Source: Notamacropus eugenii (taxonomy: Eukaryota; Chordata; Mammalia; Diprotodontia; Macropodidae). From it: DNA of 64,000 bases. The stretch covers positions 326,843 to 390,842 of the forward strand of contig NW_027325142.1 in assembly GCF_028372415.1 (NCBI RefSeq). Reading direction: 5' to 3'. Of the stretch, positions 2,720-61,632 are shown piece by piece. Made by a program: the position numbers and the translations under genes. Position 1 is the stretch's first letter, and every line of letters starts with the position of its first letter. Below the pieces are notes generated by a model. It was not told the DNA's origin and did no database searches. It was given only the letters and a program-made list of their open reading frames with translations.

Positions 2720-2885
2720 GGGAGCCAGCCAGACATATTGGAAAGAGCACTGGACTTGATCTCACAATTCAGTTCCACCCCTAAAAACAAGTAAATTTTA
2801 TGTCCTACGGCAAGTGACTCTCTCTCCATGACCTACTTCCCACCTATAAATGGGGGACAGGATCACAGTATTTGTACTTGCTAAT
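2720..2885 (+). repeat. MIR-like SINE
   Basis: Contains GGAAAGAGCACTGGACTTG, GGCAAGTGACTC and a TATAAATGGGGGACAGG end, the usual order of the MIR/MAR consensus. Confidence 0.6.
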
Positions 2886-3985: not shown

Positions 3986-4055
3986 AAAACTGGCTATTGC
4001 TATCTTGTGTTGTTGACATCATCGAAGTTATCCCAAGTAGCCTTACTCCTTCCCA

Positions 4056-4135
4056 TCTAGAGAATCATTCTGGCTAACAAATAATTGTTTCCTTTCCGTC
4101 TAGAGAATCATCCTGACTAACAAATAATTATTTTC
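4056..4135. repeat. Two-unit tandem repeat, about 43-bp period
   Basis: TCTAGAGAATCATYCTGRCT followed by AACAAATAATTR occurs at 4056 and again at 4099 with a few mismatches. Confidence 0.8.
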
Positions 4136-5542: not shown

Positions 5543-5639
5543 CATGCATTTAGCTCTGACAGATGTGTAACATCAGAATAAAGCATGTTGGTTATGCCTT
5601 GAAAAGATTTCTTTGGCTGATCTTCTGTATCCATTTCAC
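5543..5639 (-). CDS. PABIR2: PABIR2-like coding exon 9
   Basis: 97 nt between CCCACAG and GCATG/GTGAGT. It encodes EMDTEDQPKKSFQGITNML then YSDVTHLSELNA and two bases (TG) of a split codon. FQGITNML is a conserved family block. In human PABIR2 the split codon is cysteine, so the next exon should begin with T or C. Confidence 0.9.
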
Positions 5640-8600
5640 CTGTGGGAGAGTAGCAATGAAAAAGTACTCACAATCTGCTTGGTTATCTGTCTATCATTTC
5701 CCTCTCTCTTTATCACTGTAAGTGGAATCACTTCATGAGACCGGGAAAAGCAATGGAAGTAAAAAATTTAAGTGAAGTAAAAACATTAAAAGAAACTAAA
5801 ATAAATTAGACGAAACTAAGTCACGTCATTCCCAGAGCACTTAAAGCTACAACTGGGCAGAAAATAAGAAACAGATTAAAAGTAGAAAAGTCTTTTAAAA
5901 CAAATTAAAGTGGATGCATTAATTACATTTAGGCTACAACACCACAGTCTCTGATATATTGTACAAGGAAGGAAATATGGCAATAAAGAAAACAAGGAGG
6001 AGAAAATTAGAGCAACTACAGCAAGTATACAAAGAAAGTTTCCTTTTGAAGGTGACCTTTTATTTTTTTAGTCCGTTGAAGGTTTGACTTTCAAGATAGC
6101 TGAAAAGGAGTAGGATGCTAACGGTTTAGGAAAGAAACAAACTCTGGCAACTGTTGTAATCAAAAACGGGCAGCAAATCTACACTTACTTTCCCAGATTT
6201 ATAATACTTTATTTTTAATACTTTTTTTTTTTGTTAAAATGCTTAAAATTTAAACTTGTTGAGGTTAGAGGCTCTTTTGTTTATAGAGGTATCACCAGCG
6301 TGTATAGGAAAAGCCATGTACATATAAAAGAGATACAGCTGGAAAGAGGGAGGGAAGGATGGTAGAGGGTTCTCTTGGGACAGAGAAAGAATAGACTGAA
6401 GTGTAGGTGACATGATTTGGGGGTGTCAAAAGAGTCTATTCTAGATTTAAATGTAGCAAATCCTTAATGAAAGACTTGTCTCATGCCTTCATAAACATGC
6501 TTCTAAATGAAAGGTGTAGAGAATGGAATATGTGAGCTGGGCCCGAGGACATGAGGATGTGAGTTCAATTCTAACATCAGACACTTATCATCCATGGTCA
6601 CCTTGGGCAAGTCACTTAAGCCCTGCTTGCCTTAGTCTCCTCATCTCTGTAATGGGGATAATAATAGCACCTACCTCCCAGGTTGTGTGCATCAAATACG
6701 ACATTAATTTTAAAATGCTTACGCATGGTACCTGACACATACAAGTGAGCACCATATAAATGGTAGCTATTATTACTATTATGAATGATGGAGGGTGAAA
6801 CCTGTAGAGAAGACAGGATGAAATGCGGTCAGTTGTGCATTAGTTGCATTACTGCATTGGCAAGGAGAACAGCCTTTTGACATGAGGCAGAGATTAAAGC
6901 AAACACAGCAGCAAGAAAGCATCTCTGTGATGTGATATGAAAAGTAGTGAAGAGGGAGGTATCGTTTTTTTTTTTCCTCCAAAGAAAAACACAGGGTAAG
7001 GTTCTCAGCTAAGAATATGGGGAAAGGAAAAGGTATGGGAGGTTTCAGGAGAGATGAAACATTTTGGGAAAGCTGAGGTGGGACAGTCACTTAAAGAAAG
7101 GGCCCAGCTGAGGCTAGATAACAAAAATTTGGAGTGTGTAGGAATGAAAAAAGAAGTAGATAGTGAAAGGCTTCGCGGCCTGGCACAGCAATATAAGGGA
7201 CAAAGAACGCAAGAAAACAGTATAGAGATAAAATGGTCAAGATGGGAAAAGGAGAAGAGAATAACAGTGATGGCCAAAGGTCCTGGTAAAGATGAGCAGT
7301 GAGAGTTTGGAGTTGCAGAGGGAGAGATGGAATGACAACAGACTGATAAATGTGTTCTAAATAAATTTTACAATTCTATTTTGAAATTCGGGTATACACA
7401 CAGTACCTTTTCTTTTCACTGCTCCAAGAATCCCTGGTCTAATACAGTTGACGGGACTGTGGCTTCTTCTGCTAAAATTATATGTAACAGTATAATTTCA
7501 GTGGTAGATATGTCATTAATAATTAGAAATAACAGTAGTAACAAAAGAATAGAGTTATAAGACAAAGGAAAAGTTATTACAATTCAGAGAAAAGTTTCTA
7601 GTTCCAGGTCTATCAGCTAATCATAATCATATAATTATGGTTTATGTAGCCCATTTCTCATATTTCACTGCTCCCTTAAAAATGCTTTAAAAAGTTATTT
7701 CAAGGTTATGAATCTTGAAACAGAACCTTCGGGTTTTCAAGATGCTTTATACTGTTTAAAATAAACTCTAAGCAAAAGAAGCTAGGTAGTATCTGGCTGA
7801 GAAAACAAACTGTGCTGGATTCAATTTTTAATTAGGTAAATGTTACTGAAGCATTACTTGAGTGTATCAGACATTTTATTATTAAACGCTCAACATGCGC
7901 TTGTGTTGGAAATCATTAAGGACAACTATGCTAGGTAAGATATTACATCCAGCATCACATCAATGTAGAATTTTTTCTCTACCAATAAAGAGAATGCAAA
8001 CCCATCCATACTATCTCATCTGTAGTTAAAATGGTAAAATTGTGTTTTTCCTCACTCTCTGGCCTTATTCAATGATTTTTTTCAATTATTATTTATTCCA
8101 CATGCCCTGTATTTCATTGCTCATAATGGAGAAACTGCTACTATTCTAGGCCTGTCAGTTCCTTAGCTTCCTCAGCTTTCCTGAGCCCAAATTTCATTTT
8201 ACCTTGGCTGTCCAAGGAGACACTCACACTTTAGTTTTACCATTTCTTAAAAGTGGTCCACCTCAGCTTTAAATAAACTAGGAATGGTCCAACCACCGAG
8301 AAAAAAAGCACCTGGAATTTTGCCAGACTGTTTAAGTCAGGGCGGGAACCTAACCTGTAGGCTTCCCTTTCCCCCTGAAGGTTCCCTACCCCTAGCCTAA
8401 GATTATGAATTGAAATCCAAGGAGGCTAAAGTCACAAAGAGAGGTCCCATTTTGTGGAGTAGCAAAAAAACCTGGAAACAAAATGTAAGTACGCTAATTT
8501 GGGAATGACTAGATAAGAAAAACAAATATGAAAGCAAATATGGAAAAGAAAACAAATATGAAGAATTAAGAGAAACTTAGGAGGACTTGGATGAACTGAT

Positions 8601-11600
8601 AGAAGGTGACATAAAGAGAAACATTAAAAAACATATGCATGATGTAAATGGAAAAATTAAAAATGAGTTGTTTTTGTAATGATCAGGAAGCTTTCCTGGG
8701 AAGTGGAGCCAAGACAGGCTCTTGATTGTGCTGTTTCCCAAACCCCTCCAAATACCTTTAAAAATGACTCTCGACAAATTCTCCACAAAATGATGGAGTA
8801 AAACATATTTCTAGCCCATGACAACGTAGAACTCTGGCGGGAAACGTCTGCTGTTGCAGCAGAGTGAGAGAGGAGCACAGTCCAGCACAGGCTGGAGCAG
8901 CACTTAGGAGTGAATCAATCAGCAGCAGCGGTGGCTATGTCTGGAGCTCTCAGCCCAAAGATGGTAAGAGAGTTGAACAGACTAGGCTAAATGTCAAAAG
9001 AGGTCCAAAACATCCGGTGAGGAGAAGAATGCTTTAAAAAGCAGAATTGAAGAAATGGAAAACAAGGTCCAAAAGCTCACTGAGGAAAATAATTCCTTAA
9101 AAATTAGAATGGAGCACAAGGAAGCTAATGACTCCAAGAGAAACCAAGAAATTATTAAATAAAAAGATGAAAAAAAATTAGGAGGCAAAGTGAAATAGCT
9201 CCTTGGAAAAACAAATGAACTGGAAAATAGATCCAGGAGAGATAATTTATAAATTAGTGGACTACCTGAAAGTTGTGATCAGAATAAGAGCCTAGATATC
9301 ATCTTTCAGGAAATTATCGGGGGGAAATGCCCTGAAATTCTAGACCCAGAAGAGAAAATAGAAATTGATAGAATTCACTGATCACTCCCTAAAAGAGATC
9401 CCCAAATGAAAACTCCCAGGAATATTATAAATTCCAGAGTTCCCAGGGCAAGGAGAAGCAATCAGAAAGACACAATTCAAGTACGGTGGAGCAACAGTCA
9501 GGATAACTTAGTAGTTTCTACATTAAAGGATCAGAGAGCTTGGAATATGATACTCCCAAGGACAAAAGGGTCAGGATTACAACCAAGAATCACCAACCCC
9601 ACAAAACCGAATGTAATCCTTCAGAGGAATAGTTGGACATTCAATGAGACAGAGGACTTTCAAGCATTCCAGATGAAAAGATCAAAACTGAATAGAAAAA
9701 CTGACTTGCAAATACAAGATTCAGAAGAAACATAAAAAAGATAAGATTAAACTGTTTGTGTTCCTACACTGCAAGATGATATTTATAACTCATGAGACCT
9801 TTCTCATTATTGGGGTTGTTAGAAGGAGTATATATAAACAGAGCACAAGGGTGTGAGTTGAATATGAAGGGATACCTAAGAAATAAGGGGTGAGAAAGAG
9901 GAATGGATTGGAAGAAAGGGACAGGGAGAGGTAGAATGGGGCACATTATCTCACATAACGGAGGCAAGCCAAAGCTTCTACAGTGGAGTGGAAAAGGGCA
10001 AAGGTGAGGGGGAGTGAACCTTACTCTCATCAGAACTGGCTCAAAGAGGGAATGATATACACCTTCAACTGGGTGTAGAAATCTATCTTGCCCTACAGGA
10101 AAGTAGGAGGGAAAGGGGAAAAGAGAGAAGGGGGGTAGCGGTGATAGCTGGGATGGCAAATTGAGGGAAGGGGTAAGTCAGAAGCAACCCACTTTTAAAG
10201 AGGGACAGGGTGAAAGGAGAAAGAGACTGGAATAAATGGGGTGGAGATAGGAAGGTGGGAAATATTATTAGCAAAGGAAACTGTGAAAAAACATTATGAA
10301 GCAAGTTTCTTTGATAAGAGTCTCATTTCTTAAACATATAGAGAACTCAGTCAACTTCATAAAAATAAGAGTCATTCCCCAGTTGATAAATGATCAAAAG
10401 ATATGACCAGTTTTCAGATGAAGTAATCAAAGCTATCTACAGCCACTACTGATTGGAGAAATGCAAACTGAAACAATCCAGAGGATACCTCATCCCTATT
10501 AGACTGGCTAATAGGACAGAAAAAGGTAATGACCAATGTTCGAGGGGATGTGTGGAAAATGAGACAGTAATGCACTACTGGTGGAGTTGTGACCTAATTC
10601 TGTAGAGCAATTTGGAACTATGCCCAAAGTTCCTATAAACTCTGCCTATAAAACCATGGATACCTTTTGACATAGCAATACCACTGCTAGGTCTGAATCC
10701 CAAAAGGGATAAAAGAAAAGGACCTATATGTACAAAAATATTTGTAGCAGCTCTTTTCTGGGTACAAAGAATCATAAATTGAGGGGATGCCCATCAATTC
10801 ATTAACGGCTGAACAAACCGTGGTATGTGATTATGATGGAATGCTATTGCTTTATAAGAAATGGTGAGCAGGATGCTCTCAGAAAAGCCTGCAAAGACGT
10901 ATCTGAGCTGATGTAAAATGAAAGGTGCTCTGCTCAAAGTAACAGCAATGCTCTAAGAGGTGATCAGCTGCGAATGGCTTAGCTATTCTCAGCAATGCAA
11001 TGATTCAGGACAACTCTGAAGGACTTCTGATGAAAAATGTTAACCTTCCCTAGAGAAAGAAGTGATGCTGTCGGAATACAGATTGCAACATACTTCTTTT
11101 TGTCTGTGTTTTCTTTGACAACATGACTATTATGGATATGTTTTGCATAACTAGACGTGCATAACCTGCATCGAATTGCTTGCCTTCTTAATGTAAAGGG
11201 TTGAAGAGGGAGGAAGGGAGAGATTTTGGAACTCAGCTTTAAAAATGAATGCTAAACAATTTTTACGACCAGTGTCTCTGATAAAGGGCTCATTTCTAAA
11301 ATACCTAGAGAACTGAGTCAAATTTATGAGAATACAAGTCATGACCCAATTGCTAAATGTTCAAAGGATATGAACAGGCAGTTTTCAGATGAAAAAATTA
11401 AAGATATCTATAGTCATATGAAAAATACTCTAAATCACCTTTGGTTGGACAAACGTACATCAAGACAACTCTGTGATGGTCTAACATGACAAAACAGGAA
11501 AATGATCAACGTTGGAGAGGATGTGGGAAAATTGGAACACTAATTCATGGTTGGTGGAGTTGTGAACTGATCTAATCCTTTAGGAGACATATTTGGAACT

Positions 11601-14600
11601 ATGCTCAAAGGGCTATGAAACTGTGTACCCTTTGACCCAGCAATATCGCTTCTAGGGCTGCATCCCAAAGACATCATAAAAAAGGGAAAAGGACCCACAT
11701 GTACAAAAATATTTATAGCAGCTCTTTTTGTGGTAACCAAGAATTGGAAATTGAGGAGATACCCATCAACTGGGGAATGACTGAACAAGTTGTGGTATAT
11801 GAATGTCATGGAACACTACTGTGTTATGAGAAAGTTGGAAGAAGGAAACAATGTAATAAATAATAGCTGCAAGTGGAATTTTAGGGTATTACTAGTGGAT
11901 AAATAATTCCTCATATTATAATAGTAAAAGGCATTCAATGAATATAGTTTTTTGAAGTGTGAAGAATACAGCCCCATGATTTCACAATGTAGAAAAAAGT
12001 GTTCAAAATACTTATATTTGTAAAAACAAAAACAAGAACTACAGAGCCTCCATTGAAGTCCTACAGCAAGTCAAAATTCTTCAAAACTCTGAAAGTAGCA
12101 CTAAATTTACCACATTGTACCAGGTTCTCAGGTCTTGCATTAGAAAGTTACGCCTGTATTCCAAGCACTAAACCAGTTAACATTGAAAGAGAGGCCTGTT
12201 ATTAGTTAGTGGGGTAACAAGTGAACTTTTTTGATCATGACAACTTGTGAACTGGTATTAAAGCATGAAGGATTTTCAATTTATATTAATGAAGGGAGAG
12301 TCCTGACAATTGTGAAATCAAAGAATTTGCAGTTGAGCAGTACACACGTACTTACGTTGTAAATCGTCTTGTTGGGCTAGGAATAGGACTTGGAGGAAAT
12401 CCGCTGCTGCTCACAAAACTTTGTAATGATGGTGAGAAACATTGCTTTAAAAAAGGAAAAGTTTAAGGAAAACAAACAATGTTTTTTTTTAATTTGAAAT
12501 AAGTCGAAGCAAAAGAAAACTGCCAGAAAGATTCGTAAAGCGGTTCAAATTTCTGCTTTCCTGGCTTACCTTGCCAACTCCCCTGGTGGGTGAAGGTGCT
12601 GGGGAAACTGGAACGAAATCAATTAACTTCCGAAAGGATGACTTCTCGGCATCACCACCACTCTATTTTTTTTTTAAAGTTACAAAATTGCAGATGGTCA
12701 ATTAATTTAGACTCAAGACATTTGAAAGGATTTAATGTAATGCAAAGAGATTTGGAATCAGAAGCCCCATCTATGTAGCCTTTTATAAATCACTTCACTT
12801 CCCTGCGTTTCTCATAAGGGAGTTAGACTAGATGATTCTAAGATCTAGTACACTCGAAATATGGTCCATAGTCGACATTAACTTAGTCTCCAGGAAATCC
12901 TTTTCTGTGGGGGGAAGTATTTCTTGGCATTGCGATTCTCATAAGACCTGGTATGTTGAGAACAACAAACACAATAACCGCAGAAGGAAACCAAAGAATC
13001 AGAAATGCTACTGATCTCTTGGAAAAGCCAGGTAATCAAAAGGGCGCTGACCCTTCGGGAAGGTAGCGCTGTTCGCTCTTAACAGTACCATTGCAAGGGT
13101 GTTCACATGTGTTTGCGTAAAAGTGTAGGGTAAGGACAGAGATCTACAACAATGTGTGTAACACTGGCTCTAATGAAGAAGAAGACTGAAAAGGAAGGTG
13201 CAAAGAAGAAGGAGACCACTACGTTGGAAATGAAAAAAAAGAAATCACTGAGAAGCATGAATCTGGCGTGCGTGCGTGCGTGTGACCGACCTCTCACGGT
13301 TTTATAATGCATCTACAATCTGTACCTTTTTGAGGAAGAAGGACAAAATAAAGGCAGTAGATGCAGTGAAAGGGGTCACGAGAATATCAAAGCAAAGGCC
13401 ACGTGTTCCAGAATATGTTGAAAAGCTGCTTCTCATGTGGATCAGTGAGAAGTAGTTAGCAGATGATACCGAACCGAGAACAAAGAGCCAGTGGAAGAAC
13501 ACAGCCAGGAGCTGACGATCAACGAACTGATGGATCTGCAAGAGGAGATCAGCGAGAGGTTGCGGAGGATACCTCATCTGAGGAGGAGGTGGAGAATTCG
13601 GAGGACTGCCTCATGTCAAGTGAGATTAGGGAAGCTTATCAGATGTGGGGAAAAGTGCAAAATTTTGTTGAAAAACGTCACCCAAGTAAGGCTGTAGCAA
13701 GGAGAACCACAAATATTTTTAACGAGAATGCAAAGTCACATTTCTGTGAGTCTGAAAAAATGTCAAAAAGAAGTATCATTAGATAGAGTCCTAATCAGAA
13801 GCGAACGTAAAGGAAAAAAAAACACAGTGAGTCAAAACATGAAAGTGATTCGAACAAATGAAAAAAAGTGAAGACAGTAATGTTAGTCTTGCTTTTAGTG
13901 AAAGTAGCATAGGAGAGAACACTCCTGACACTGAAATCCCCAATGTTCCCCAATGTCCCCAATGTTCAATCTCCTTCCAAGCAATATCCCTTCTTCCTCC
14001 TCCTCCCTCTCAACTCCCTTATGCCAGCCACAACTCTTTTCAAAGGTAAAGTGCAGGTGAATTTACTTTATTTTTGGTTCGTATTGTGCATTAATCATTG
14101 CTATTGTATTTCAGGTGCATGAGGGACAAAACGCTTACTTAAAATCATAAATAATTATGTGTACTTTCTATATATATATACATATATATAATTATTTTTA
14201 CATGAATGTTTTGGGGGATGAGGTACTGATCATGTGACTTCACATTATTTCCTATGGGAAAATTCGCTTTGCAATACGAAAAAATCGCATGATGAACAGA
14301 ATCTTGGAACAAATTAAATTCGTAAACCGAGGTTCTACTGTACGTGCCTCCTTCTTTTCTCTGACACAGCTTGCAGCAAGCCCTTATCACCAGGCCTGGT
14401 TGATTACAAAACCCTACTACCTGGTCTTGCCTTAAGTCCCTCCCCAAATCAATCTATCCTCCACTCACTTGACAGATTGATTTCCCTAAAATGAAGACCT
14501 CACCATTATTATGCTCCTATTTAATAAACTTCAAAGGACCCCTATTCCCACCCACCATGATCAAAGATAAGATATCCTAGTTTTCAAAGCCCTTCGTACC

Positions 14601-17600
14601 TTGGCCCTTTAGCTACCCTTCTAATGTCTTTACATTCTATGTCCCTCCACAAACACTATGATACATTGACATGTTGTTCTTCACAAGATGCTCCATTTTC
14701 CAACTCTAGGCATTTTCCCCAGCTGGCACCCATGACTAGAACGCTCTCCTTCTGCATCCCAATCTCCCAGCTTCCCAGACTTCCTTCACTAAATTTCTTC
14801 AACTAAATTTCTACCTTTTGTAAGAAGCCTCTCTCAGTCCTCCTTAATCTCAATCCCTTTCCTCTGAGATTTATCTTGAATTTATCGGGTAGAGATCTTT
14901 TTGTACCTAGCCTTCTCCACTCCATTAGCTCATGAGATCCTTGAGAAGAGGGGCTGTTGGCCTGTCTTTCCCTATACCACCAGCATTCAGTGCATAGTAT
15001 ATGGATCTTCTTCTTTTCCCTTCAAATATATTCCTTTTCTCCTCCATTCCTACTCATCCTTTAAGATCATCCAAACATCAAAACACATCCTTATTAGACT
15101 CCTTCTGATGGAATCCTAAAAAAGCTGCCTCCAGTCCCAACAATTCTAACCTCCTTGTGGAACAGCAGGCATGTCCTGATTTGACCACACAGTCTAGCTT
15201 TAACCACATCTCAGGCCCCAGACTCAATATAACCATTGCCCCCAGATCCATTTCACATATTTGAACGGGTACGTCCTTGTACTCAACCACAATCACGTCA
15301 ACCATCCAAGACAGGACACGATACCTAACTGTCCATCTTGACCAGTCAAGATAACAGCTAGTCAATCAGAAAGCCGTATGAACAGGATGTTTGACCACTA
15401 AACCACAGAAGGGACCCTTTCCCCATTACCTAATCCCTTAACAAATTCTTCCTGCCTTTTTAATATTCATAATTTCTGTTATGTAGTTGCATCTTTGCCC
15501 TATAAGAAACCCATCTTGCTTTCTCTGAAGTTGCTGGTTCCTCCTGGAACCTAGTCCACTTCTGAGGGGCATCAGTCTTCAATAAATGTCTTGGATCCGA
15601 GGTGGTCTGACTCTGAATTCTTTGAGATGGTGCCACCATGACACACCATGAAACCGCAATACTTCTGTGACAGCCAATGATGATAGGGATCTGAAGTGAC
15701 ATGTACCATTTTCCTGTATTAGATTTTAAGCAGTATGCTAATGATAGCCCCTCAAAAGCGTTCCTCATATTTACCTTTTCATGTTTCTCTTGACTCCTGG
15801 GTTTATATTGAAAAGCTTGGGGGTTTTTTTTGCATCAGGAATACTTAAAAGTACTCTTTTGAAGGTCCATGTGTTCTCCCTCCCTATGTCCTACATGACT
15901 ATAATCGATTTTGATGAGTGAATTGTTCATCAGAGTCTGTCTGATTTCTTTCGGAATTTTGTCTTCCAAACTCTCTACTCTTTTAACGTATTTTCTAAAT
16001 GTAATTGCTATCTTGATTGTGGCACCTTGATGCTCAAATTCTTTCTTTCTGCCTCCTTGCACTTTTTCCTTTCTTGTGATATATCTGGATTTTGGCTATA
16101 ACAACTGTCATAATTCATAATTTGGTTTGGTTTTTTTTTTCAGAAGGTGCTCAGTGGATTCTTCTATTTTCCTTTTCCTTTTGGGTTCTAGAAATCTGCA
16201 CAGTTTTTATCATGTATTGAAGTAAATGTATCTATTTATTGAATGTCGAAACCCCTTAAGGGGTAGAGAGTGGGGAAGGAGTCCTTGGCTTTCAGGCAAT
16301 CCAATGATTTTAAAATTATCTTTCTCCAAATATTTTACCCATCAGTTGTTTCTGACATGAGATACCTTTCATTTTTCTTCTATTCTTCCATGTTTTGGCT
16401 TTTCTTTAATATTTCTTGCCACATGAGGTCACTGACTTTTCTTTTGGTTCATTTTATTTTTTTAGGGTTTCTGTTGGCTGACGAAGTATCTTTTGTTTAC
16501 TTTTTTACTTCTTGTGCCAAGCTGTTGTTTCTATTTCCAATTATTTTTTCCAAAGGTCTCATTTCTTTTCCAAAATTTCCCTCCAGTGCTTTCATACAAC
16601 ATATAAAAACAATTTAGGGTCTGCTTTATCATCTTTGGCTTCATACTTTGCAAGAACTGTGGTTTAGTTTGTGCACAAGTTGTTCTTTGCTTTGTGGCTT
16701 TGCTTGTAAGTGCCTTGAAGTAATTTTCTTCTTCTGGGTTTAAGTCTTGAACATTCCTGTCATCATATTTGCCCTAGTGCCCAGATTCAGGCACTGTGTG
16801 TTGATGGTATCCTGGTTTGACTCAGTAGCAGCTTTATTTCCTAATGCTAACCTGACCCCCTGCCGTCTTTTGCTTGGATTTTTAGTGATTTAGATTTAGA
16901 AGCTTCTATCCTTTAGTTTTTCTAGTCCTTTGTTGGAATAATTGAATGAGGAGAGTGGCCTGTACATCTCTTCCTGTTTTGGTGGTCCTCTATCCTCAAC
17001 CTATGTGACCCTTTTACAGCACCTAAAATTAGTGGCTATCTTTTTCAAATGGAATCTCCCTGAGATTTCATGGCAATGTTCCGTCCCTCCACATATCTGA
17101 TCTCTCCTCAGTTTCCTTTGCTTATCATCCATAATGTGTCTTCCCTTCATGCCTCCCACCCCACTCCCCACCCCTGAAACTGCCTGCGATGTTTTTCTCC
17201 AAGGCTCTGTCCTGGGCTCCCTTTCCTGAATGGGATATGGAATGAATTAAGGATAAGCACAATGCCTTGATGTAAACTGAAGCTTAGCTGAGACTGGATA
17301 ATATTAAGTAGAAGTTAAATCAAGAGAAGACTGTATATTAGGCTAAGGAGTTAAGGCATAAGGTAATCCAGAAGGTGAATCCACAACAAAACTGGTTTTC
17401 AAGACTTTACCAAATGCAGGCTTTCCTCCCAAGACTGACTTATCTGCATTGCGGTCTGCACCTCCCTATAAACACAAGAGATTTGATTGGTGATGTATGT
17501 TATTATCTTCTTCATAAAAAAAAAAATGCCCATCATAACACTTCAAAGTGCTATACTCACCTTTCACGTACAGTTTCTCTGTTTATCAAATCCATTGCTT

Positions 17601-29352: not shown

Positions 29353-29398
<46 letters not shown>

Positions 29399-31520: not shown

Positions 31521-31560
<40 letters not shown>

Positions 31561-43500: not shown

Positions 43501-44361
43501 TGGAAAACATAGGAGCTAAAGAAATAAATGAGGGAGGAAGAAGATGTGGACCTAAAAATAAAATGAACTGAATTCAAAATCCTATTAAACCAGCATAATA
43601 ACTGCAAATAGGAAATGCAAACATTTCAGTTGTATATCAACTATTAGTATTCAATGATAGGGAAATCTTTGCATTAAGTTTTTTTGAATAACATCTTGAT
43701 ATCTTAGACAAGTTCTGTACATGCCAAATAATAGAAGTATATTGGATTGTCAGCTTGTTGTAACTATTAACTACATGAAAGACTGCTCTCAACTGCTGAT
43801 AACAGAGGTACAAGTGAAAACAGTGTGGGGTATTTCCTCATTAGTACTCTGTCATTCTATCAATATGACGTAGTCAAGAACTCCTTTTCCTATATCTAAA
43901 GACAGAATTGAAATATGTATCTGAATTCTTTTCTAGCTGTACAGCCTAGGATTTCTTTGACCTCTGAACCTTCAGGGTAGATACTTCCTACCGCTCCTCC
44001 CCCATTAGATTGATTGTAAACTCTTTGTTGATACAGACTCTTCTTTTTCATATTTTTCCCCAGTGCTTAGCACCAGGTCTGGAACATAGTTTATTGACTA
44101 TGCTTAGAGGGGATAGAAATGTCCAGCAATCTTACTGCTAGACTTATGCATGAAAACATCAAAAGAAAGAGAAGTCATACAGCATTTCTGCAGTACCTCC
44201 TCAAACTGGAAACAAAGTAGATGACCATTTTGGGAAATGGCTATGAAATTAGGAAAGATGATATAGAAGCAAAATAGCCAGTGTTGGAAGGTCTTCAGGA
44301 ATTCAAGCATGCTTGTCAGTAGCTTCAACCATTCCTAAGAAGATCCTGAATTATGTAAAGA

Positions 44362-44405
<44 letters not shown>

Positions 44406-49985: not shown

Positions 49986-50250
49986 GTCCGTGAAGGTAAA
50001 AGGCTTTACAAGCTCCGTAAGACTTCCGGTATGCCGAGTACGTAAAGCAAGATCCGGTCGTACCGCGCTGATCCGTAGTTGTTGTTATTTCACGACAATT
50101 CAGGTATCCACTCAATTTAGAAAAGACGTTTACAGAACTTAAAGCTAAGCTCCTGTCTGCTCCGCCCAAAAGCCTTGGGCGTTTACTTCCGGGTTGCGGG
50201 ATTTTTTTTTTTTTTTTTCTCTCCAAACTTGGGGGCGGTTATGTGTACAA
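49986..50250 (-). promoter_or_regulatory. CpG-rich promoter and 5' UTR of the PABIR2-like gene, possibly bidirectional
   Basis: Locally high CpG density in otherwise AT-rich DNA directly upstream of the start codon. Minus-strand ETS/GABP boxes (CCGGAAGT, CGGAAGT) lie near 50184-50193 and 50022-50029. GC boxes lie near 50160 (GGGCGGA, minus strand) and 50230 (GGGGCGG, plus strand). There is no TATA box near the start. These are housekeeping-type elements and often fire both ways. On the plus side a donor-like CAG/GTAAAC at 50296 is followed about 5 kb later by exon 4 of the right arm. Confidence 0.65.
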
Positions 50251-50559
50251 CGGCAATAAATAACTACACACTGGAATAATGCCTAACAATATCCAGGTAA
50301 ACTTCATTTTGTTTAGGTAATATTTGAAAGCACAACATACGTTATTTTAAAAAGCTGTGTCCAACTCATACTATAACATAATATGTAAAAAAGTTAACAA
50401 AATATCTTTTCTATAACCTTCAAATACACTTTATAGCTTTTTCATGGTCCAATTTAAATTTTACATAATTATCTCCCAATTCACATTTTCAAATCCCCTT
50501 TTCATCCAAATACATGAAATGAATACTTTCTTCCAACTATTCATTTTGGTAAAAATTAA

Positions 50560-51747
50560 CCGCACAAATTCCAAAAGAATGGATTTCATAATAGAAAACA
50601 AGTACATCATTAAATAATAGAGGTGATAATGAGTGTCCTTGCTTCACCCCTAATCTTATTGCTGTGTGGGATGGCTCAGGTCCCTACATAAATCAATTAT
50701 TCAGAGGCCTCTCAAAGTGATGACAGAAAAGAGTTTTATTCGATTCTCGAGAATCTGGACAATCCCACAGCAGTTCACCTGGAGTAGGAAAGCCGAAGAT
50801 AAAAATCAGGACAGTGATTTATAAACCCTAACGCAAGTCCCTCCTCCCTCCCCCGCCACTGACCATTATCCTCATTAGCTGAGGATATGGTCTTACATTC
50901 TAGACAGGAGATCGAACCAATCCCTTTGAAATGAAGACATCGAGGAATTACGCAAGTTTTGTCCAATCATTGAGACCCCAGTACACCACACAGTTTTATA
51001 CCTTATATGGAACTATTCTATTCCAAAAACACTGCAGCCCCGAGCCTCCAGGCCCCACCTCACCCTTGGGAGAAAACCACAATCTGAGGAGTCTTCACCA
51101 AGTCTATCCCACTCATTGTGAAGTCTTCTCCCTTGTCTCCATTATACATAGTAGTTGCTCATGGTTACATATAAATATTACATATAATTCTAAAGTAAAT
51201 TCGATTTATACTGATGCTCTTTAACATTTTTAATAGGAATGGGTGCTGCATTTTGTGAAAGTGTTTTTCCGCATGTATGTAATATCTGTTACTTTTGTTA
51301 TTGATGTAGCCAATTATGCTAATACTGAGCCACATCTCCATGCGTGCTACAAATCCCACCTGGTCCTAGTGTCTCATACTTGTGTAATCTCTTTGCTAGT
51401 ATTTCATTTAAATTTTTTCCATCAATATTCACCAGGGAAATTTGTCTATAATTTTCTATCTCTCAGCTCTTCATGATTTTTGAATCACTGTGTTTACATT
51501 TGTGTAGTACTAAGAGTTTGATACAACTCCTTCTTTCTGTATTTCTCCAAACTATTTCCATACTACTCCGATTAATTTTTCTTTAAATGTGTACTGAAAA
51601 CCATTTGCAAATCGATCTCATCCTTGGAATTTTTTATTACAAGGTCCATTGAAGGCTTTTTCAAATGATTTTTCTAAGGTTAGGTTATTTAAATATTTTT
51701 TTTCTTCATTTGTTAATCTGTATCATTTATATTTCTGTATACATTCC
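50560..51747 (-). mobile_element. L1 ORF2 fragment, antisense, interrupted by an LTR
   Basis: Antisense ORF2 signals before (GAGTGTCCTTGCTTCACCCC) and after (AATAGGAATGGGTGCTGCAT, TTGATGTAGCCAATTATGC) the LTR at 50662-51115. It ends exactly where the right palindrome arm begins at 51748. Confidence 0.75.
50662..51115 (-). mobile_element. Solitary ERV LTR upstream of the PABIR2-like promoter
   Basis: Minus-strand order: TGAGTGGGAT terminus, TATAAAACTGTGTGG box at about 50990-51000, a second TATAAA near 50818, AATAAAACTC polyadenylation signal near 50735, and an ATCCCACA terminus. ATTG flanks both sides (50658-50661 and 51115-51118), a plausible 4-bp target duplication, with L1 resuming on each side. 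Same orientation as the PABIR2-like gene and about 0.7-1.1 kb upstream of its start codon, so a possible alternative promoter. Confidence 0.6.
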
Positions 51748-52931
51748 TGCTCACTCTTTGGGAATCCTGAAAGTTTGTAGACTTTTAGTCAAAATTATGA
51801 AAGGAGCAGATGGATGTAAGAGGACAGAAACTCAGGTCAGATGGACGTTGTCCCTCCTCAGATACACAGAGCTTAGGACTAACAGGTACAACAAGTATTC
51901 CTAGAAGAGTTAAAAAGAAAAGTTGCTTTTCTAAAGACTTAAAAAAAAAAGTTCTACAAACCAAATGGGAGCAGTGGAGGGGAAAAAACGTAAAAGAACT
52001 AAAGTATTTATGAATAGAGGAGTAACAGCTTTCAAAAAGAGGTACAAAACTGTGCTGAAGAAAGGTAAGCCATACAAAATTACAATTGGCCAAATGAAAG
52101 CTAATAATTTCATGAGCTACCAGGAAATAAAAGAAAGTTGAGTCTGAAAAAGATGTGTGTGAAATAGTTAATAGGAAAAACAACTATCCTGGAAAAAAGA
52201 TCAAAGAGAGATGATTTAAGGATAATTGGACCACCTGACAATAAGAGCAAGAATAAGAGAAAGTCTCCTATTCTGAGAAATCCTACAAGAAAACACTTAG
52301 ATAGTTTAGAACCAGGGAATACCACCAGTTAGTTGTCTCCAGAAAAAAAGCACAAAAGAAGACTCCTAAGGATAGTATAGCCAAAATGCAGGACTCCAAG
52401 ATGAAGGAAAAGAAAATCCTTCAAGCAACCTGAAAAAAAGGATTCAGTGACAGAGAAGCCACAATAAAGATCATACGAGATGTATCAACCAGGATCTAAA
52501 CGTACAACTCAGGACAATCGTCCCCAAAATTGTCAAAGAAAGGAGAAGAAAGACACATGTGTGGATACGAAGAATTGGAAATTGTCAGGTCTCCATCAAT
52601 TGGACAGTAGTTGAATAAGTTATTGTTATTATACTGTAAGAAATTTTTAGTATTATATTATATCGTATATATATTATAATACAAGAAATTAATCAGGGAA
52701 TAGTTTCATAGACACTGTGGAGGACTTGTGTAAGCTAATGCACATTAAAGTGAGCAGAAATAGGAGAACAATTATGTGATAACAATATGTAAAATAATCA
52801 GCCTTGAAAGACTTAAATAATCGTTCTGATCAGTACAACCAACCACAATTCTAGGGGATTCAGAGTAAAACTTGCTGTCCAACTCAACATGGAGAACTGA
52901 TGAATGCCTGCTGAGAAATGAAAATTAAATA
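51748..52931 (+). mobile_element. HAL1/L1 fragment, right arm (mirror of 19960-21143)
   Basis: Reverse complement of the left-arm element. The open frame of 132 codons antisense at 51785-52183 is a shadow of decayed ORF1. Confidence 0.6.
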
Positions 52932-53190
52932 AAATTGAATTATAAAAAGTTTACCAGGGGGTAAAGTCATTGTGTTATAAAGTTGTTGTTTGAAGATACA
53001 TAAAGAACTAATCCTTAATTCATGAGAAGAGTCATTTCCCCTAATAAATAAGCAAGTGATATGAGTGAACAGTCTGGAAAGGAAGAAATCCAAGCTATCA
53101 CTAGCCATACTGGGTAACTGGTAGGATCTGCAAGGAACAGGAAAAACAGTTCCCATTCTCAAGGAGCTTACAGTCTTTTAAGTCTGGCTT

Positions 53191-54201
53191 CCCACCTCAT
53201 CATTCAGCTCTAAGTTTTTTCTAAAGTTAGCTGAAGTTAATGAACTTTTTCTCAATCTCCATCTGTTTTTGACCTCCCTACAGCCTTTGACATTGTAGAT
53301 CCCTTTCTTTTCCTGCATGCTGTCTCCTTGAGGGCTTCTTGACACTGATCTCTTTTGATTTTCCACCACCTGCTGCTTCTCCTCAATGACCCTGAGGGGA
53401 CATTTCCCCATTAGACTGTAAATACTTCACTTTCTACATAGTCACTTTTAAATGCTCGGTTTTATTTGCTTTTTGCTGTTTGGGGTCTTGTATGTTTATT
53501 TCAAAGTTTCTGCTTACCTTTCATCTTTTTATCAACAATTTTTAGACGTGCTCTATTTTATTAATTCCCTTCCTTACCGACCCGTCCACTTCCCACCCCC
53601 CACCCAGTAAGATTATACTGTTTTGCTATTCTTGGTCGTAAACCGTCTCTTGACTTTTGGAATATCAATCATATTCCACGGTCTCTTATCCCATTTCCAA
53701 ACTTCTCCATTACTGTTAAGAGCACCACCATCACCCAGGCTCACATATTAGGAATCATCCTCGATTCCTTAGTCGCTCACCCCACCATACCCAAGACCTT
53801 TGGATTTTGCCTTTGTCTCTCACATCTGCCTTCTTCTCTCCTGATACCTGCACCACCTCAACACAGGCCCTCATTTTCTTATGCCTGAACTTTCACAGGA
53901 GCCCGCTGGTTGTTCTGCCTGCTACAGTTCTCTCAAGTGCATCCTCCACTCAGTTGTCAAAATGATCTTCCTAGAGTATACTTCTGTCCGTGTCATTTCC
54001 TCCCACTTGCCAGCATAAACTCCAGTGGCTCCTTATCACCTCTGAGATAAAGTGTGAAATCTTCTGTTTCACCTCCAAAGTCCTCATAACCTGTCTTCTC
54101 CCACACACACTTCTACCTCCCAAGGTATACCTGCAAGGATCAAGTGACATAACCATTGTAAAGCATTTATCACAATGTCTGGCACACAGTAAGTTATTAT
54201 T
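53191..54201 (+). mobile_element. L2 LINE fragment, right arm
   Basis: Mirror of 18690-19700, in sense here. Confidence 0.65.
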
Positions 54202-54445
54202 CTGTACTGTATGGTCAGTGGCCTCTGCCAGGATTAGCGTGAGCACAACAGCCTTGGCAGAGGTGCTGTAAAGTCCTGAACCAAGGTGCACCTGTTCTTT
54301 GCCTTCCCTTTCTGATCAGTAGGGGAAAACCCAAGTTCTTTTACAGAATAATACAGCTTCAGGTTCCAGAGTTCTTCACTAGAACCTTCTCTGGACTTCA
54401 GTCTCCCTGCCCTAGCACATTTGGGGAGGGGAGGCAGGAAAGAGA

Positions 54446-54581
54446 ATAAGCATTTTTATAGTACCTTCTCCGTGCCAGTCACAACAGCAGTGAGCAGATG
54501 CTATTATTATCCCCATTTTAGAATTGAGGAGACTAAAAACAGGTTAAGTGACTTGCCCAGGCTCACACAACTAGTACATGT
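54446..54581 (-). repeat. MIR SINE, right arm
   Basis: Mirror of 18310-18445. Confidence 0.8.
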
Positions 54582-55840
54582 TTCATGTAACCTCAGGCTC
54601 TAGGCTTCCCTGGCCCATTCCAATATCTGAGGGATTGTTATTATCCCTGTTAGAGGAGAAAAAAGTAATTAGGTGAGGGCTGGCCTGTTCAGTTTCCATA
54701 TACTCTGTCATCTTGAGGAAAGGATTACAATTTATTGACATTTCATTTCTTCTGGCTTTCCTATGCTGGTTGCTGTTGCTGTCCTGCATTTAGTTGGATG
54801 CATGCATGAATAATTGAATGAGTGAGTGAGTGAATGAATGAATGAAAAAGCACTTATTAAGTGCTTTTATGTATGTTAATAATGATGGATAAGTATGAGA
54901 GAGAGAAAGAGCACACGAAGAATTACTTGGTTCTTAAGAGTCTGTAGCGTAAACACAGTTAAAGGGCTCTGTGAACATGTTCAATATTTCATAGCATGAT
55001 GTGTAGAAAAACTGTTCATTAATAGTTAACTTATTTTTATTTTAGCATTGAAATTTCTGCTCCCTGAGGAATTCTCAAATTTTTTTGTGTGTTGAAATAT
55101 ATATTACATCTTTGTTATTATGCCTTTTGCAGATAAAATTATGATATGTTTTAAGTTTCATTCGTTCAGAGATTTTAAAGATGCATTTGCCTCTTTGTAC
55201 TACAGGAAATAAAGATTAGGACTTACTGAAATTAAATAAAATGTTGTGAGACTATAATGGGTTAAATTTGATTAATTTTTTTTCAGGAAGAAGCAATGGA
55301 TTTGATAAACAGAGAAACTGTACGTGAAAGGTGAGTATAGCACTTTGAAGTGTTATGATGGGCATTTTTTTTTTTATGAAGAAGATAATAACATACATCA
55401 CCAATCAAATCTCTTGTGTTTATAGGGAGGTGCAGACCGCAATGCAGATAAGTCAGTCTTGGGAGGAAAGCCTGCATTTGGTAAAGTCTTGAAAACCAGT
55501 TTTGTTGTGGATTCACCTTCTGGATTACCTTATGCCTTAACTCCTTAGCCTAATATACAGTCTTCTCTTGATTTAACTTCTACTTAATATTATCCAGTCT
55601 CAGCTAAGCTTCAGTTTACTTCAAGGCATTGTGCTTATCCTTAATTCATTCCATATCCCATTCAGGAAAGGGAGCCCAGGACAGAGCCTTGGAGAAAAAC
55701 ATCGCAGGCAGTTTCAGGGGTGGGGAGTGGGGTGGGAGGCATGAAGGGAAGACACATTATGGATGATAAGCAAAGGAAACTGAGGAGAGATCAGATATGT
55801 GGAGGGACGGAACATTGCCATGAAATCTCAGGGAGATTCC

Positions 55841-57061
55841 ATTTGAAAAAGATAGCCACTAATTTTAGGTGCTGTAAAAGGGTCACATAGGTTGAGGATA
55901 GAGGACCACCAAAACAGGAAGAGATGTACAGGCCACTCTCCTCATTCAATTATTCCAACAAAGGACTAGAAAAACTAAAGGATAGAAGCTTCTAAATCTA
56001 AATCACTAAAAATCCAAGCAAAAGACGGCAGGGGGTCAGGTTAGCATTAGGAAATAAAGCTGCTACTGAGTCAAACCAGGATACCATCAACACACAGTGC
56101 CTGAATCTGGGCACTAGGGCAAATATGATGACAGGAATGTTCAAGACTTAAACCCAGAAGAAGAAAATTACTTCAAGGCACTTACAAGCAAAGCCACAAA
56201 GCAAAGAACAACTTGTGCACAAACTAAACCACAGTTCTTGCAAAGTATGAAGCCAAAGATGATAAAGCAGACCCTAAATTGTTTTTATATGTTGTATGAA
56301 AGCACTGGAGGGAAATTTTGGAAAAGAAATGAGACCTTTGGAAAAAATAATTGGAAATAGAAACAACAGCTTGGCACAAGAAGTAAAAAAGTAAACAAAA
56401 GATACTTCGTCAGCCAACAGAAACCCTAAAAAAATAAAATGAACCAAAAGAAAAGTCAGTGACCTCATGTGGCAAGAAATATTAAAGAAAAGCCAAAACA
56501 TGGAAGAATAGAAGAAAAATGAAAGGTATCTCATGTCAGAAACAACTGATGGGTAAAATATTTGGAGAAAGATAATTTTAAAATCATTGGATTGCCTGAA
56601 AGCCAAGGACTCCTTCCCCACTCTCTACCCCTTAAGGGGTTTCGACATTCAATAAATAGATACATTTACTTCAATACATGATAAAAACTGTGCAGATTTC
56701 TAGAACCCAAAAGGAAAAGGAAAATAGAAGAATCCACTGAGCACCTTCTGAAAAAAAAAACCAAACCAAATTATGAATTATGACAGTTGTTATAGCCAAA
56801 ATCCAGATATATCACAAGAAAGGAAAAAGTGCAAGGAGGCAGAAAGAAAGAATTTGAGCATCAAGGTGCCACAATCAAGATAGCAATTACATTTAGAAAA
56901 TACGTTAAAAGAGTAGAGAGTTTGGAAGACAAAATTCCGAAAGAAATCAGACAGACTCTGATGAACAATTCACTCATCAAAATCGATTATAGTCATGTAG
57001 GACATAGGGAGGGAGAACACATGGACCTTCAAAAGAGTACTTTTAAGTATTCCTGATGCAA
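55841..57061 (+). mobile_element. HAL1/L1 ORF1 region, right arm
   Basis: Mirror of 15830-17050. Sits in the intron between right-arm exons 5 and 6. Confidence 0.6.
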
Positions 57062-57248
57062 AAAAAACCCCCAAGCTTTTCAATATAAACCCAGGAGTCA
57101 AGAGAAACATGAAAAGGTAAATATGAGGAACGCTTTTGAGGGGCTATCATTAGCATACTGCTTAAAATCTAATACAGGAAAATGGTACATGTCACTTCAG
57201 ATCCCTATCATCATTGGCTGTCACAGAAGTATTGCGGTTTCATGGTGT

Positions 57249-57771
57249 GTCATGGTGGCACCATCTCAAAGAATTCAGAGTCAGACCACCTCGGATCCAA
57301 GACATTTATTGAAGACTGATGCCCCTCAGAAGTGGACTAGGTTCCAGGAGGAACCAGCAACTTCAGAGAAAGCAAGATGGGTTTCTTATAGGGCAAAGAT
57401 GCAACTACATAACAGAAATTATGAATATTAAAAAGGCAGGAAGAATTTGTTAAGGGATTAGGTAATGGGGAAAGGGTCCCTTCTGTGGTTTAGTGGTCAA
57501 ACATCCTGTTCATACGGCTTTCTGATTGACTAGCTGTTATCTTGACTGGTCAAGATGGACAGTTAGGTATCGTGTCCTGTCTTGGATGGTTGACGTGATT
57601 GTGGTTGAGTACAAGGACGTACCCGTTCAAATATGTGAAATGGATCTGGGGGCAATGGTTATATTGAGTCTGGGGCCTGAGATGTGGTTAAAGCTAGACT
57701 GTGTGGTCAAATCAGGACATGCCTGCTGTTCCACAAGGAGGTTAGAATTGTTGGGACTGGAGGCAGCTTTT
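57249..57771 (-). mobile_element. Solitary ERV LTR, right arm
   Basis: Mirror of 15120-15642. In antisense orientation within intron 5 of the orphan exon set, as in the left arm. Confidence 0.5.
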
Positions 57772-58431
57772 TTAGGATTCCATCAGAAGGAGTCTAATAA
57801 GGATGTGTTTTGATGTTTGGATGATCTTAAAGGATGAGTAGGAATGGAGGAGAAAAGGAATATATTTGAAGGGAAAAGAAGAAGATCCATATACTATGCA
57901 CTGAATGCTGGTGGTATAGGGAAAGACAGGCCAACAGCCCCTCTTCTCAAGGATCTCATGAGCTAATGGAGTGGAGAAGGCTAGGTACAAAAAGATCTCT
58001 ACCCGATAAATTCAAGATAAATCTCAGAGGAAAGGGATTGAGATTAAGGAGGACTGAGAGAGGCTTCTTACAAAAGGTAGAAATTTAGTTGAAGAAATTT
58101 AGTGAAGGAAGTCTGGGAAGCTGGGAGATTGGGATGCAGAAGGAGAGCGTTCTAGTCATGGGTGCCAGCTGGGGAAAATGCCTAGAGTTGGAAAATGGAG
58201 CATCTTGTGAAGAACAACATGTCAATGTATCATAGTGTTTGTGGAGGGACATAGAATGTAAAGACATTAGAAGGGTAGCTAAAGGGCCAAGGTACGAAGG
58301 GCTTTGAAAACTAGGATATCTTATCTTTGATCATGGTGGGTGGGAATAGGGGTCCTTTGAAGTTTATTAAATAGGAGCATAATAATGGTGAGGTCTTCAT
58401 TTTAGGGAAATCAATCTGTCAAGTGAGTGGA
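57772..58431 (-). mobile_element. L2 LINE 3' region, right arm
   Basis: Mirror of 14460-15119. Confidence 0.65.
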
Positions 58432-58550
58432 GGATAGATTGATTTGGGGAGGGACTTAAGGCAAGACCAGGTAGTAGGGTTTTGTAATCAACCAGGCCTG
58501 GTGATAAGGGCTTGCTGCAAGCTGTGTCAGAGAAAAGAAGGAGGCACGTA

Positions 58551-59855
58551 CAGTAGAACCTCGGTTTACGAATTTAATTTGTTCCAAGATTCTGTTCATC
58601 ATGCGATTTTTTCGTATTGCAAAGCGAATTTTCCCATAGGAAATAATGTGAAGTCACATGATCAGTACCTCATCCCCCAAAACATTCATGTAAAAATAAT
58701 TATATATATGTATATATATATATATAGAAAGTACACATAATTATTTATGATTTTAAGTAAGCGTTTTGTCCCTCATGCACCTGAAATACAATAGCAATGA
58801 TTAATGCACAATACGAACCAAAAATAAAGTAAATTCACCTGCACTTTACCTTTGAAAAGAGTTGTGGCTGGCATAAGGGAGTTGAGAGGGAGGAGGAGGA
58901 AGAAGGGATATTGCTTGGAAGGAGATTGAACATTGGGGACATTGGGGAACATTGGGGATTTCAGTGTCAGGAGTGTTCTCTCCTATGCTACTTTCACTAA
59001 AAGCAAGACTAACATTACTGTCTTCACTTTTTTTCATTTGTTCGAATCACTTTCATGTTTTGACTCACTGTGTTTTTTTTTCCTTTACGTTCGCTTCTGA
59101 TTAGGACTCTATCTAATGATACTTCTTTTTGACATTTTTTCAGACTCACAGAAATGTGACTTTGCATTCTCGTTAAAAATATTTGTGGTTCTCCTTGCTA
59201 CAGCCTTACTTGGGTGACGTTTTTCAACAAAATTTTGCACTTTTCCCCACATCTGATAAGCTTCCCTAATCTCACTTGACATGAGGCAGTCCTCCGAATT
59301 CTCCACCTCCTCCTCAGATGAGGTATCCTCCGCAACCTCTCGCTGATCTCCTCTTGCAGATCCATCAGTTCGTTGATCGTCAGCTCCTGGCTGTGTTCTT
59401 CCACTGGCTCTTTGTTCTCGGTTCGGTATCATCTGCTAACTACTTCTCACTGATCCACATGAGAAGCAGCTTTTCAACATATTCTGGAACACGTGGCCTT
59501 TGCTTTGATATTCTCGTGACCCCTTTCACTGCATCTACTGCCTTTATTTTGTCCTTCTTCCTCAAAAAGGTACAGATTGTAGATGCATTATAAAACCGTG
59601 AGAGGTCGGTCACACGCACGCACGCACGCCAGATTCATGCTTCTCAGTGATTTCTTTTTTTTCATTTCCAACGTAGTGGTCTCCTTCTTCTTTGCACCTT
59701 CCTTTTCAGTCTTCTTCTTCATTAGAGCCAGTGTTACACACATTGTTGTAGATCTCTGTCCTTACCCTACACTTTTACGCAAACACATGTGAACACCCTT
59801 GCAATGGTACTGTTAAGAGCGAACAGCGCTACCTTCCCGAAGGGTCAGCGCCCTT
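58551..59855 (-). mobile_element. Tigger/pogo-type transposon, right arm
   Basis: Mirror of 13040-14340. The terminal repeat CAGTAGAACCTCGGTTTACG starts at 58551, preceded by TA. Contains the longer allele of the TA microsatellite at 58695-58728. Confidence 0.75.
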
Positions 59856-60014
59856 TTGATTACCTGGCTTTTCCAAGAGATCAGTAGCATTTCTGATTCT
59901 TTGGTTTCCTTCTGCGGTTATTGTGTTTGTTGTTCTCAACATACCAGGTCTTATGAGAATCGCAATGCCAAGAAATACTTCCCCCCACAGAAAAGGATTT
60001 CCTGGAGACTAAGT

Positions 60015-60160
60015 TAATGTCGACTATGGACCATATTTCGAGTGTACTAGATCTTAGAATCATCTAGTCTAACTCCCTTATGAGAAACGCAGGGAAGTGA
60101 AGTGATTTATAAAAGGCTACATAGATGGGGCTTCTGATTCCAAATCTCTTTGCATTACAT
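60015..60160 (-). repeat. MIR-like SINE fragment, right arm
   Basis: Mirror of 12735-12880, about 70 bp before orphan exon 6. Confidence 0.6.
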
Positions 60161-61059
60161 TAAATCCTTTCAAATGTCTTGAGTCTAAATTAATTGACCA
60201 TCTGCAATTTTGTAACTTTAAAAAAAAAATAGAGTGGTGGTGATGCCGAGAAGTCATCCTTTCGGAAGTTAATTGATTTCGTTCCAGTTTCCCCAGCACC
60301 TTCACCCACCAGGGGAGTTGGCAAGGTAAGCCAGGAAAGCAGAAATTTGAACCGCTTTACGAATCTTTCTGGCAGTTTTCTTTTGCTTCGACTTATTTCA
60401 AATTAAAAAAAAACATTGTTTGTTTTCCTTAAACTTTTCCTTTTTTAAAGCAATGTTTCTCACCATCATTACAAAGTTTTGTGAGCAGCAGCGGATTTCC
60501 TCCAAGTCCTATTCCTAGCCCAACAAGACGATTTACAACGTAAGTACGTGTGTACTGCTCAACTGCAAATTCTTTGATTTCACAATTGTCAGGACTCTCC
60601 CTTCATTAATATAAATTGAAAATCCTTCATGCTTTAATACCAGTTCACAAGTTGTCATGATCAAAAAAGTTCACTTGTTACCCCACTAACTAATAACAGG
60701 CCTCTCTTTCAATGTTAACTGGTTTAGTGCTTGGAATACAGGCGTAACTTTCTAATGCAAGACCTGAGAACCTGGTACAATGTGGTAAATTTAGTGCTAC
60801 TTTCAGAGTTTTGAAGAATTTTGACTTGCTGTAGGACTTCAATGGAGGCTCTGTAGTTCTTGTTTTTGTTTTTACAAATATAAGTATTTTGAACACTTTT
60901 TTCTACATTGTGAAATCATGGGGCTGTATTCTTCACACTTCAAAAAACTATATTCATTGAATGCCTTTTACTATTATAATATGAGGAATTATTTATCCAC
61001 TAGTAATACCCTAAAATTCCACTTGCAGCTATTATTTATTACATTGTTTCCTTCTTCCA

Positions 61060-61632
61060 ACTTTCTCATAACACAGTAGTGTTCCATGACATTCATATAC
61101 CACAACTTGTTCAGTCATTCCCCAGTTGATGGGTATCTCCTCAATTTCCAATTCTTGGTTACCACAAAAAGAGCTGCTATAAATATTTTTGTACATGTGG
61201 GTCCTTTTCCCTTTTTTATGATGTCTTTGGGATGCAGCCCTAGAAGCGATATTGCTGGGTCAAAGGGTACACAGTTTCATAGCCCTTTGAGCATAGTTCC
61301 AAATATGTCTCCTAAAGGATTAGATCAGTTCACAACTCCACCAACCATGAATTAGTGTTCCAATTTTCCCACATCCTCTCCAACGTTGATCATTTTCCTG
61401 TTTTGTCATGTTAGACCATCACAGAGTTGTCTTGATGTACGTTTGTCCAACCAAAGGTGATTTAGAGTATTTTTCATATGACTATAGATATCTTTAATTT
61501 TTTCATCTGAAAACTGCCTGTTCATATCCTTTGAACATTTAGCAATTGGGTCATGACTTGTATTCTCATAAATTTGACTCAGTTCTCTAGGTATTTTAGA
61601 AATGAGCCCTTTATCAGAGACACTGGTCGTAA
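61060..61632 (-). mobile_element. L1 ORF2 3' fragment, right arm
   Basis: Mirror of 11263-11835. Confidence 0.75.

Follow-up and report, generated by a model that had tools for sequence, protein, structure and literature searches.

Human inversions provide precedents for the gene layout considered here, namely CTRB1/CTRB2 (HsInv0030), AQP12A/AQP12B (HsInv0241) and, in part, IDS/IDSP1, exon 1 of IDS lying inside the inverted segment. At CTRB1/CTRB2, as outlined in PMC6748972 and PMC4591017, the inversion swaps the first exon plus promoter and rebuilds complete gene copies, and at AQP12A/AQP12B an inversion between inverted segmental duplications swaps the first exon of the family members (PMC3961182). 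The IDS/IDSP1 region of human Xq28 contains an opposite-oriented partial copy with exons 2 and 3 plus parts of introns 2, 3 and 7 (PMC11610362, PMC6982257), and recombination there inverts the segment, 130 families being included in the table of PMC11610362. In the FLNA-EMD inversion (HsInv0389), inverted repeats flank a gene-bearing segment (PMC3961182). Primate X palindromes have arms of >99% identity kept so by gene conversion, the conserved examples having a median arm of 37 kb and a median identity of 99.953% (PMC8981503), and the flip/flop region of Saccharomyces chromosome XIV consists of 24 kb, re-inverted many times, between homogenised 4.2-kb inverted repeats (PMC9731477).

The locus, contained in a 64,000-bp stretch of tammar wallaby (Notamacropus eugenii) DNA hereafter termed the window, resembles CTRB1/CTRB2 in having first exons in a spacer and the following exons in both flanking arms, and the two human pairs CTRB1/CTRB2 and AQP12A/AQP12B have its essential geometry in common, namely, as outlined in those sources, an exchange of first exons between inverted copies. 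However, CTRB1/CTRB2 as there described comprises two complete genes, both of which have a first exon and promoter of their own, whereas the window holds one set of exons 1-3 and two sets of exons 4-7; moreover, the CTRB1/CTRB2 inversion is polymorphic, whereas the wallaby locus is known from one assembled orientation. The AQP12 pair differs in consisting of two genes with different first exons. IDS/IDSP1 shares with the wallaby locus a nearby opposite-oriented partial copy of internal exons (in the wallaby, exons 4-7 at 55287-60539, plus strand), yet the recombination described at IDS disrupts the gene and causes disease, whereas an in-silico flip of the wallaby spacer keeps exons 1-7 intact. 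Unlike the wallaby arrangement, HsInv0389 is reported to change only the orientation of whole genes (PMC3961182). Primate X palindromes are similar in placing inverted repeats around a gene-bearing segment, and the Saccharomyces system differs, apart from its occurrence in yeast, in that its repeats carry gene pairs, no split gene being described in the relevant parts of PMC9731477. The wallaby locus is thus set apart from its precedents by one set of exons 1-3 serving two coding-identical sets of exons 4-7. No description of it was noticed among the titles and abstract openings of the papers listed. Should both orientations exist, it would represent a mammalian gene, occurring outside humans and with no disease known, whose single group of first exons can be connected with one or other of two mirror-image exon sets, and could be used to measure the flip frequency of such segments.

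Self-BLAST of the window aligned 8895-21147 with 64000-51745 as an inverted repeat over 12,257 alignment columns, five of which were mismatches and five gap columns, an identity far above chance level. The alignment ends at the final base of the window, and the ~12.25 kb recorded is therefore the visible part of the arms only. Mirrored arms of >99% identity around a spacer characterise large mammalian palindromes, and the value obtained here, 99.918% over 12.25 kb, is close to the median cited above for conserved primate X palindromes. The repeat geometry of the original prediction was accordingly sustained, its spacer bounds requiring adjustment from 21144-51747 to 21148-51744. The next-longest self-matches in the window were <450 bp in length and 73-86% identical, and the terminal 2 kb at each end of the spacer matched nothing elsewhere in the window. 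In left-arm positions, the arms differ at 14168, 17271, 18704, 20455, 21126, 21127 and 21144, the seven sites comprising five mismatches, one 4-bp step in a TA repeat and one 1-bp gap; the final 22 bp before the spacer contain two of the five mismatches and the 1-bp gap.

The gene involved lies on the minus strand, with exons 1-3 in the spacer, exons 4-7 in the left arm and exons 8-10 to the left of the visible arm. When spliced from the window, its ten exons yielded the N. eugenii protein P0005 (isoform X3) in all 237 of 237 residues, with GT at 9/9 donors and AG at 9/9 acceptors; the model represents isoform X3, the P0005 cluster having 8 member sequences. Among solved structures, the translation of exons 1-2 matched PABIR1 (PPP2R1A-PPP2R2A-interacting phosphatase regulator 1, previously named FAM122A), and residues 24-114 of P0005 matched chain D of 8so0 (PABIR1) with an E value of 1.1e-36, both helices being spanned. 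As judged from sequence resemblance, the gene is assigned to the PABIR (FAM122) family of PP2A-B55 inhibitors. A Pfam scan of P0005, a second tammar protein (P0126) and eight ORFs of the window matched 0/10 at a threshold of 0.001, although database records carry a precomputed PF27638 assignment for P0005. In 200-bp windows across 49800-50299, GC ranged from 0.41 to 0.48 and the CpG observed/expected ratio from 0.67 to 1.3, and this CpG-rich stretch probably represents the promoter region.

Table 1. Positions in the window of the repeat arms, spacer, exons and right-arm exon copies.
Feature	Position	Strand	Evidence
Left arm, visible part	8895..21147	+	Self-BLAST, 99.918% vs 51745-64000
Right arm, cut by window end	51745..64000	-	Self-BLAST
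Spacer, 30.6 kb, with exons 1-3 and probable promoter region	21148..51744	.	Self-BLAST and exon model
CpG-rich stretch around exon 1, probable promoter region	49800..50299	-	Base composition
Exon 1, coding part, start codon at 49985	49870..49985	-	Translation = P0005; GT donor
Exon 2	45894..45972	-	Ten-exon model = P0005
Exon 3, most of B55-binding helix (RLHQIKQ)	28776..28832	-	Ten-exon model; helix positions from PMC10765524
Exon 4, left arm	17561..17604	-	Ten-exon model = P0005
Exon 5, left arm	17411..17465	-	Ten-exon model = P0005
Exon 6, left arm	12570..12662	-	Ten-exon model = P0005
Exon 7, left arm	12356..12444	-	Ten-exon model = P0005
Exon 8, left of visible arm	7407..7471	-	Ten-exon model = P0005
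Exon 9, left of visible arm	5543..5639	-	Ten-exon model = P0005
Exon 10, coding end of isoform X3 (GGTEL, stop), left of visible arm	2762..2780	-	Ten-exon model = P0005
Exon 4 copy, right arm	55287..55330	+	Exact with 30-bp flanks
Exon 5 copy, right arm	55426..55480	+	Exact with 30-bp flanks
Exon 6 copy, right arm	60233..60325	+	Exact with 30-bp flanks
Exon 7 copy, right arm	60451..60539	+	Exact with 30-bp flanks

All four right-arm exon copies (4/4) were exact, inclusive of 30-bp flanks and splice sites, and this result, together with the P0005-equal splice, bore out the earlier claim that exons 1-3 occupy the spacer and that exons 4-7 occur, mirrored, in both arms. Inversion of the spacer in silico moved the start codon to plus-strand position 22907, where one near 22906 had been foreseen, and joining the flipped exons 1-3 to those of the right arm re-formed on the other strand, as had likewise been anticipated, an identical exon 1-7 coding sequence with an open frame. 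The distance between exons 3 and 4, 11,172 bp as assembled, became 11,171 bp. The corresponding mirror of exons 8-10 falls at 65421-70130, beyond the window end. One proposed check, RNA-seq of exon 3-4 junctions tagged by arm-specific variants, proved unworkable for the arms as far as they are visible: exons 4-7 contain none of the sites at which the arms differ, and reads across that junction therefore cannot be assigned to an arm.

Probes for exons 1-3 from four family members (P0022, P0046, P0017 and P0010) each located every exon once in the window, at the known gene; no second set was found there, other probe matches having E values of 0.3 or worse. The idea that the right arm is an independent gene with the MSIERE start found in P0126 was rejected when a degenerate-codon search for that sequence, covering both strands, gave no match in the window, a test which covers this one first-exon sequence within 64 kb. 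The right-arm copy probably does not give rise to a full protein.

The division of the gene between spacer and arms also has a functional aspect. In PABIR1, R84-E92 form the B55-binding helix and residues 97-111 the inhibition helix (PMC10765524), and in the P0005-PABIR1 alignment exon 3 ends at the equivalent of Q90 and exon 4 starts at that of E91. The docking helix is thus encoded for the most part by the spacer, and the helix that blocks the active site by the arms; with the exon 3-4 boundary separating the two in this way, a product made from the right arm alone would be expected to be devoid of docking.

P0126 (203 residues), coded for on another contig (479,429 bp), consists of exons 4-9 plus the last exon common to the relatives (CLSSD...ELISK) and has no exons 1-3. 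In the part it has in common with P0005, and besides its own start and end, it differs at three residues (SLNL for SLHL, SQTRR for SPTRR, and GEMETED for GEMDTED), and these differences argue against its being the product of the right arm of the window: both arms carry the window versions SLHL and SPTRR, so that this candidate was rejected. The third difference belongs to exon 9, which the visible arms do not include. Since P0126 comes from another contig and is without exons 1-3, partial copies appear to recur, and copies of that kind would exist at least twice if the P0126 annotation is complete. When probes from P0126, P0020 and P0017 were used to search for the relatives' last exon, the best match in the window had an E value of 0.039 and was not exon-like; isoform X3, which is equal to the window, ends in the short GGTEL exon in place of CLSSD...ELISK.

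A tree of 30 proteins chosen from 174 placed P0005 and P0126 as sisters (100/99) inside a six-row marsupial clade (100/100). That clade (P0005, P0126, P0127, P0125, P0017 and P0020) groups with placental PABIR1 at moderate, unstarred support (88/77). Placental PABIR1 is an intronless retrogene, and the possession of introns by the marsupial gene suggests a possible relationship to the gene from which that retrogene arose. Both P0017, the orthologue of Gracilinanus, and P0173, which is of PABIR2 type according to the tree, are listed with an 82,251,158-bp contig; PABIR2 is X-linked. Among the best-120 lists, the gene was on contigs <1 Mb in three of five marsupial species (tammar, Monodelphis and Trichosurus), and on 82- and 85-Mb contigs in Gracilinanus and Dromiciops; the sub-1-Mb contigs hint at a region that is hard to assemble.

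The reading considered the most probable, and held with some though by no means full confidence, is that a large imperfect palindrome, either young or gene-converted, contains a mirrored exon copy, and that any flip of its spacer would more often be silent. The part copied, in mirror orientation, would be internal to a PABIR1-like PP2A-B55 inhibitor gene and include at least exons 4-7. As assembled, the spacer promoter, at its predicted position, would drive exons 1-3 into exons 4-7 of the left arm and exons 8-10 of the left flank, and the near-identity of the arms may have arisen either from recent duplication or from gene conversion, which would allow any age above a mutation-rate estimate. 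GC contents of 38.8% in the arms, 38.0% in the left flank and 36.2% in the spacer put the arms only slightly above the flank and give no strong gene-conversion signal. By analogy with similar loci, a crossover between the two arms would invert the spacer, so that the promoter came to serve the exons of the right arm. Natural flipping is offered here as a proposal made from a single assembled orientation, and it may be a rare event, given that inversions are far fewer than conversions at the human Y palindrome P6, where 83 phased chromosomes revealed 3 and 56, respectively, these counts being ascertained in the outer ~16% of the arms only (PMC3723533).

Whether such a flip would be silent or would swap the C-terminus depends on sequence past 64 kb, where the mirror of exons 8-10 lies. 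A silent flip is the more likely since the arms may well reach past their visible part. Were they to extend past 2762 on the left, i.e. for ~18.4 kb or more, a flip would be silent for isoform X3, an outcome given a somewhat better than even chance on the strength of the median arm length of conserved primate X palindromes. By way of contrast, a heritable switch between two C-termini would arise if the arms ended between exons 7 and 10, both orientations segregated in wallabies and each flank provided its own last exons. That combination is regarded as improbable; the conserved last exon could nevertheless lie on the other side, since CLSSD...ELISK was not found in the window yet is present in P0126.

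The arms might instead represent a static segmental duplication, inverted, of recent origin and with no flip in its history; the right arm would then be a dead fragment, and the gene would work in its present orientation only. With the koala mutation rate (6.12e-9 per base per generation; PMC13247528), and assuming no gene conversion, five mismatches in 12,253 bp correspond to ~33,000 generations (11,000-78,000), and the three that remain without the last 22 bp to ~20,000 (4,000-59,000); a single young event would thus suffice, and the scarcity of inversions relative to conversions at P6 points in the same direction. Nothing within the window itself speaks against such a history, but human inversions at highly identical inverted repeats are mostly recurrent (PMC3961182, PMC6748972), with high recurrence and three exceptions in the latter account, and a static duplication is on balance thought rather unlikely. 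Partial falsity of the duplication or of the spacer orientation, caused by a repeat longer than the reads in an unplaced contig, is given a small probability, and is kept in view because the contig is <1 Mb. The P0005 contig measures 534,368 bp, and that of P0126 and those of Monodelphis (562,252 bp) and Trichosurus (801,294 bp) are similarly below 1 Mb; reads may, moreover, be shorter than arms of at least 12 kb and so leave the spacer orientation arbitrary. A false haplotype duplicate would, however, be expected to be direct, with the spacer copied, whereas here mirrored arms enclose a 30.6-kb spacer and differ at discrete sites, the TA-repeat step included.

Human PABIR2 and PABIR3 are adjacent and divergent, an arrangement which lends some colour to the suggestion that the right arm is part of a second, rightward-transcribed gene next to the first, the two forming an ancient divergent paralogue pair homogenised by gene conversion; the right-arm exons do indeed point away from the spacer promoter. 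Against this, the family probes found a single set of exons 1-3 in the window, and a tammar PABIR2-type protein and another paralogue (types from the tree) are listed with a contig of 103,022,542 bp, and the suggestion is consequently viewed as highly improbable.

Several minor features of the window were also recorded. Searches of the window returned no tRNA genes and, at gathering scores, no Rfam match. An L1 element suspected by eye at the right inner breakpoint was dropped when no solved-structure match was obtained at E 0.01. A LINE-1 ORF2 fragment was located in the spacer at 36732-37163 on the minus strand (E 1.4e-28 to 8uw3). The first 16 residues of P0125 from Trichosurus vulpecula (MEPNCRLQAESFLKNV) matched 30187-30140 on the minus strand in 16/16 positions (E 3e-5), in intron 2 and 1.3 kb upstream of exon 3, and this match may represent either a conserved element that is shared or an alternative first exon located within the spacer. 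A tandem repeat at 4047-4133 comprised a 43-bp unit present twice, with 88% matching between the copies.
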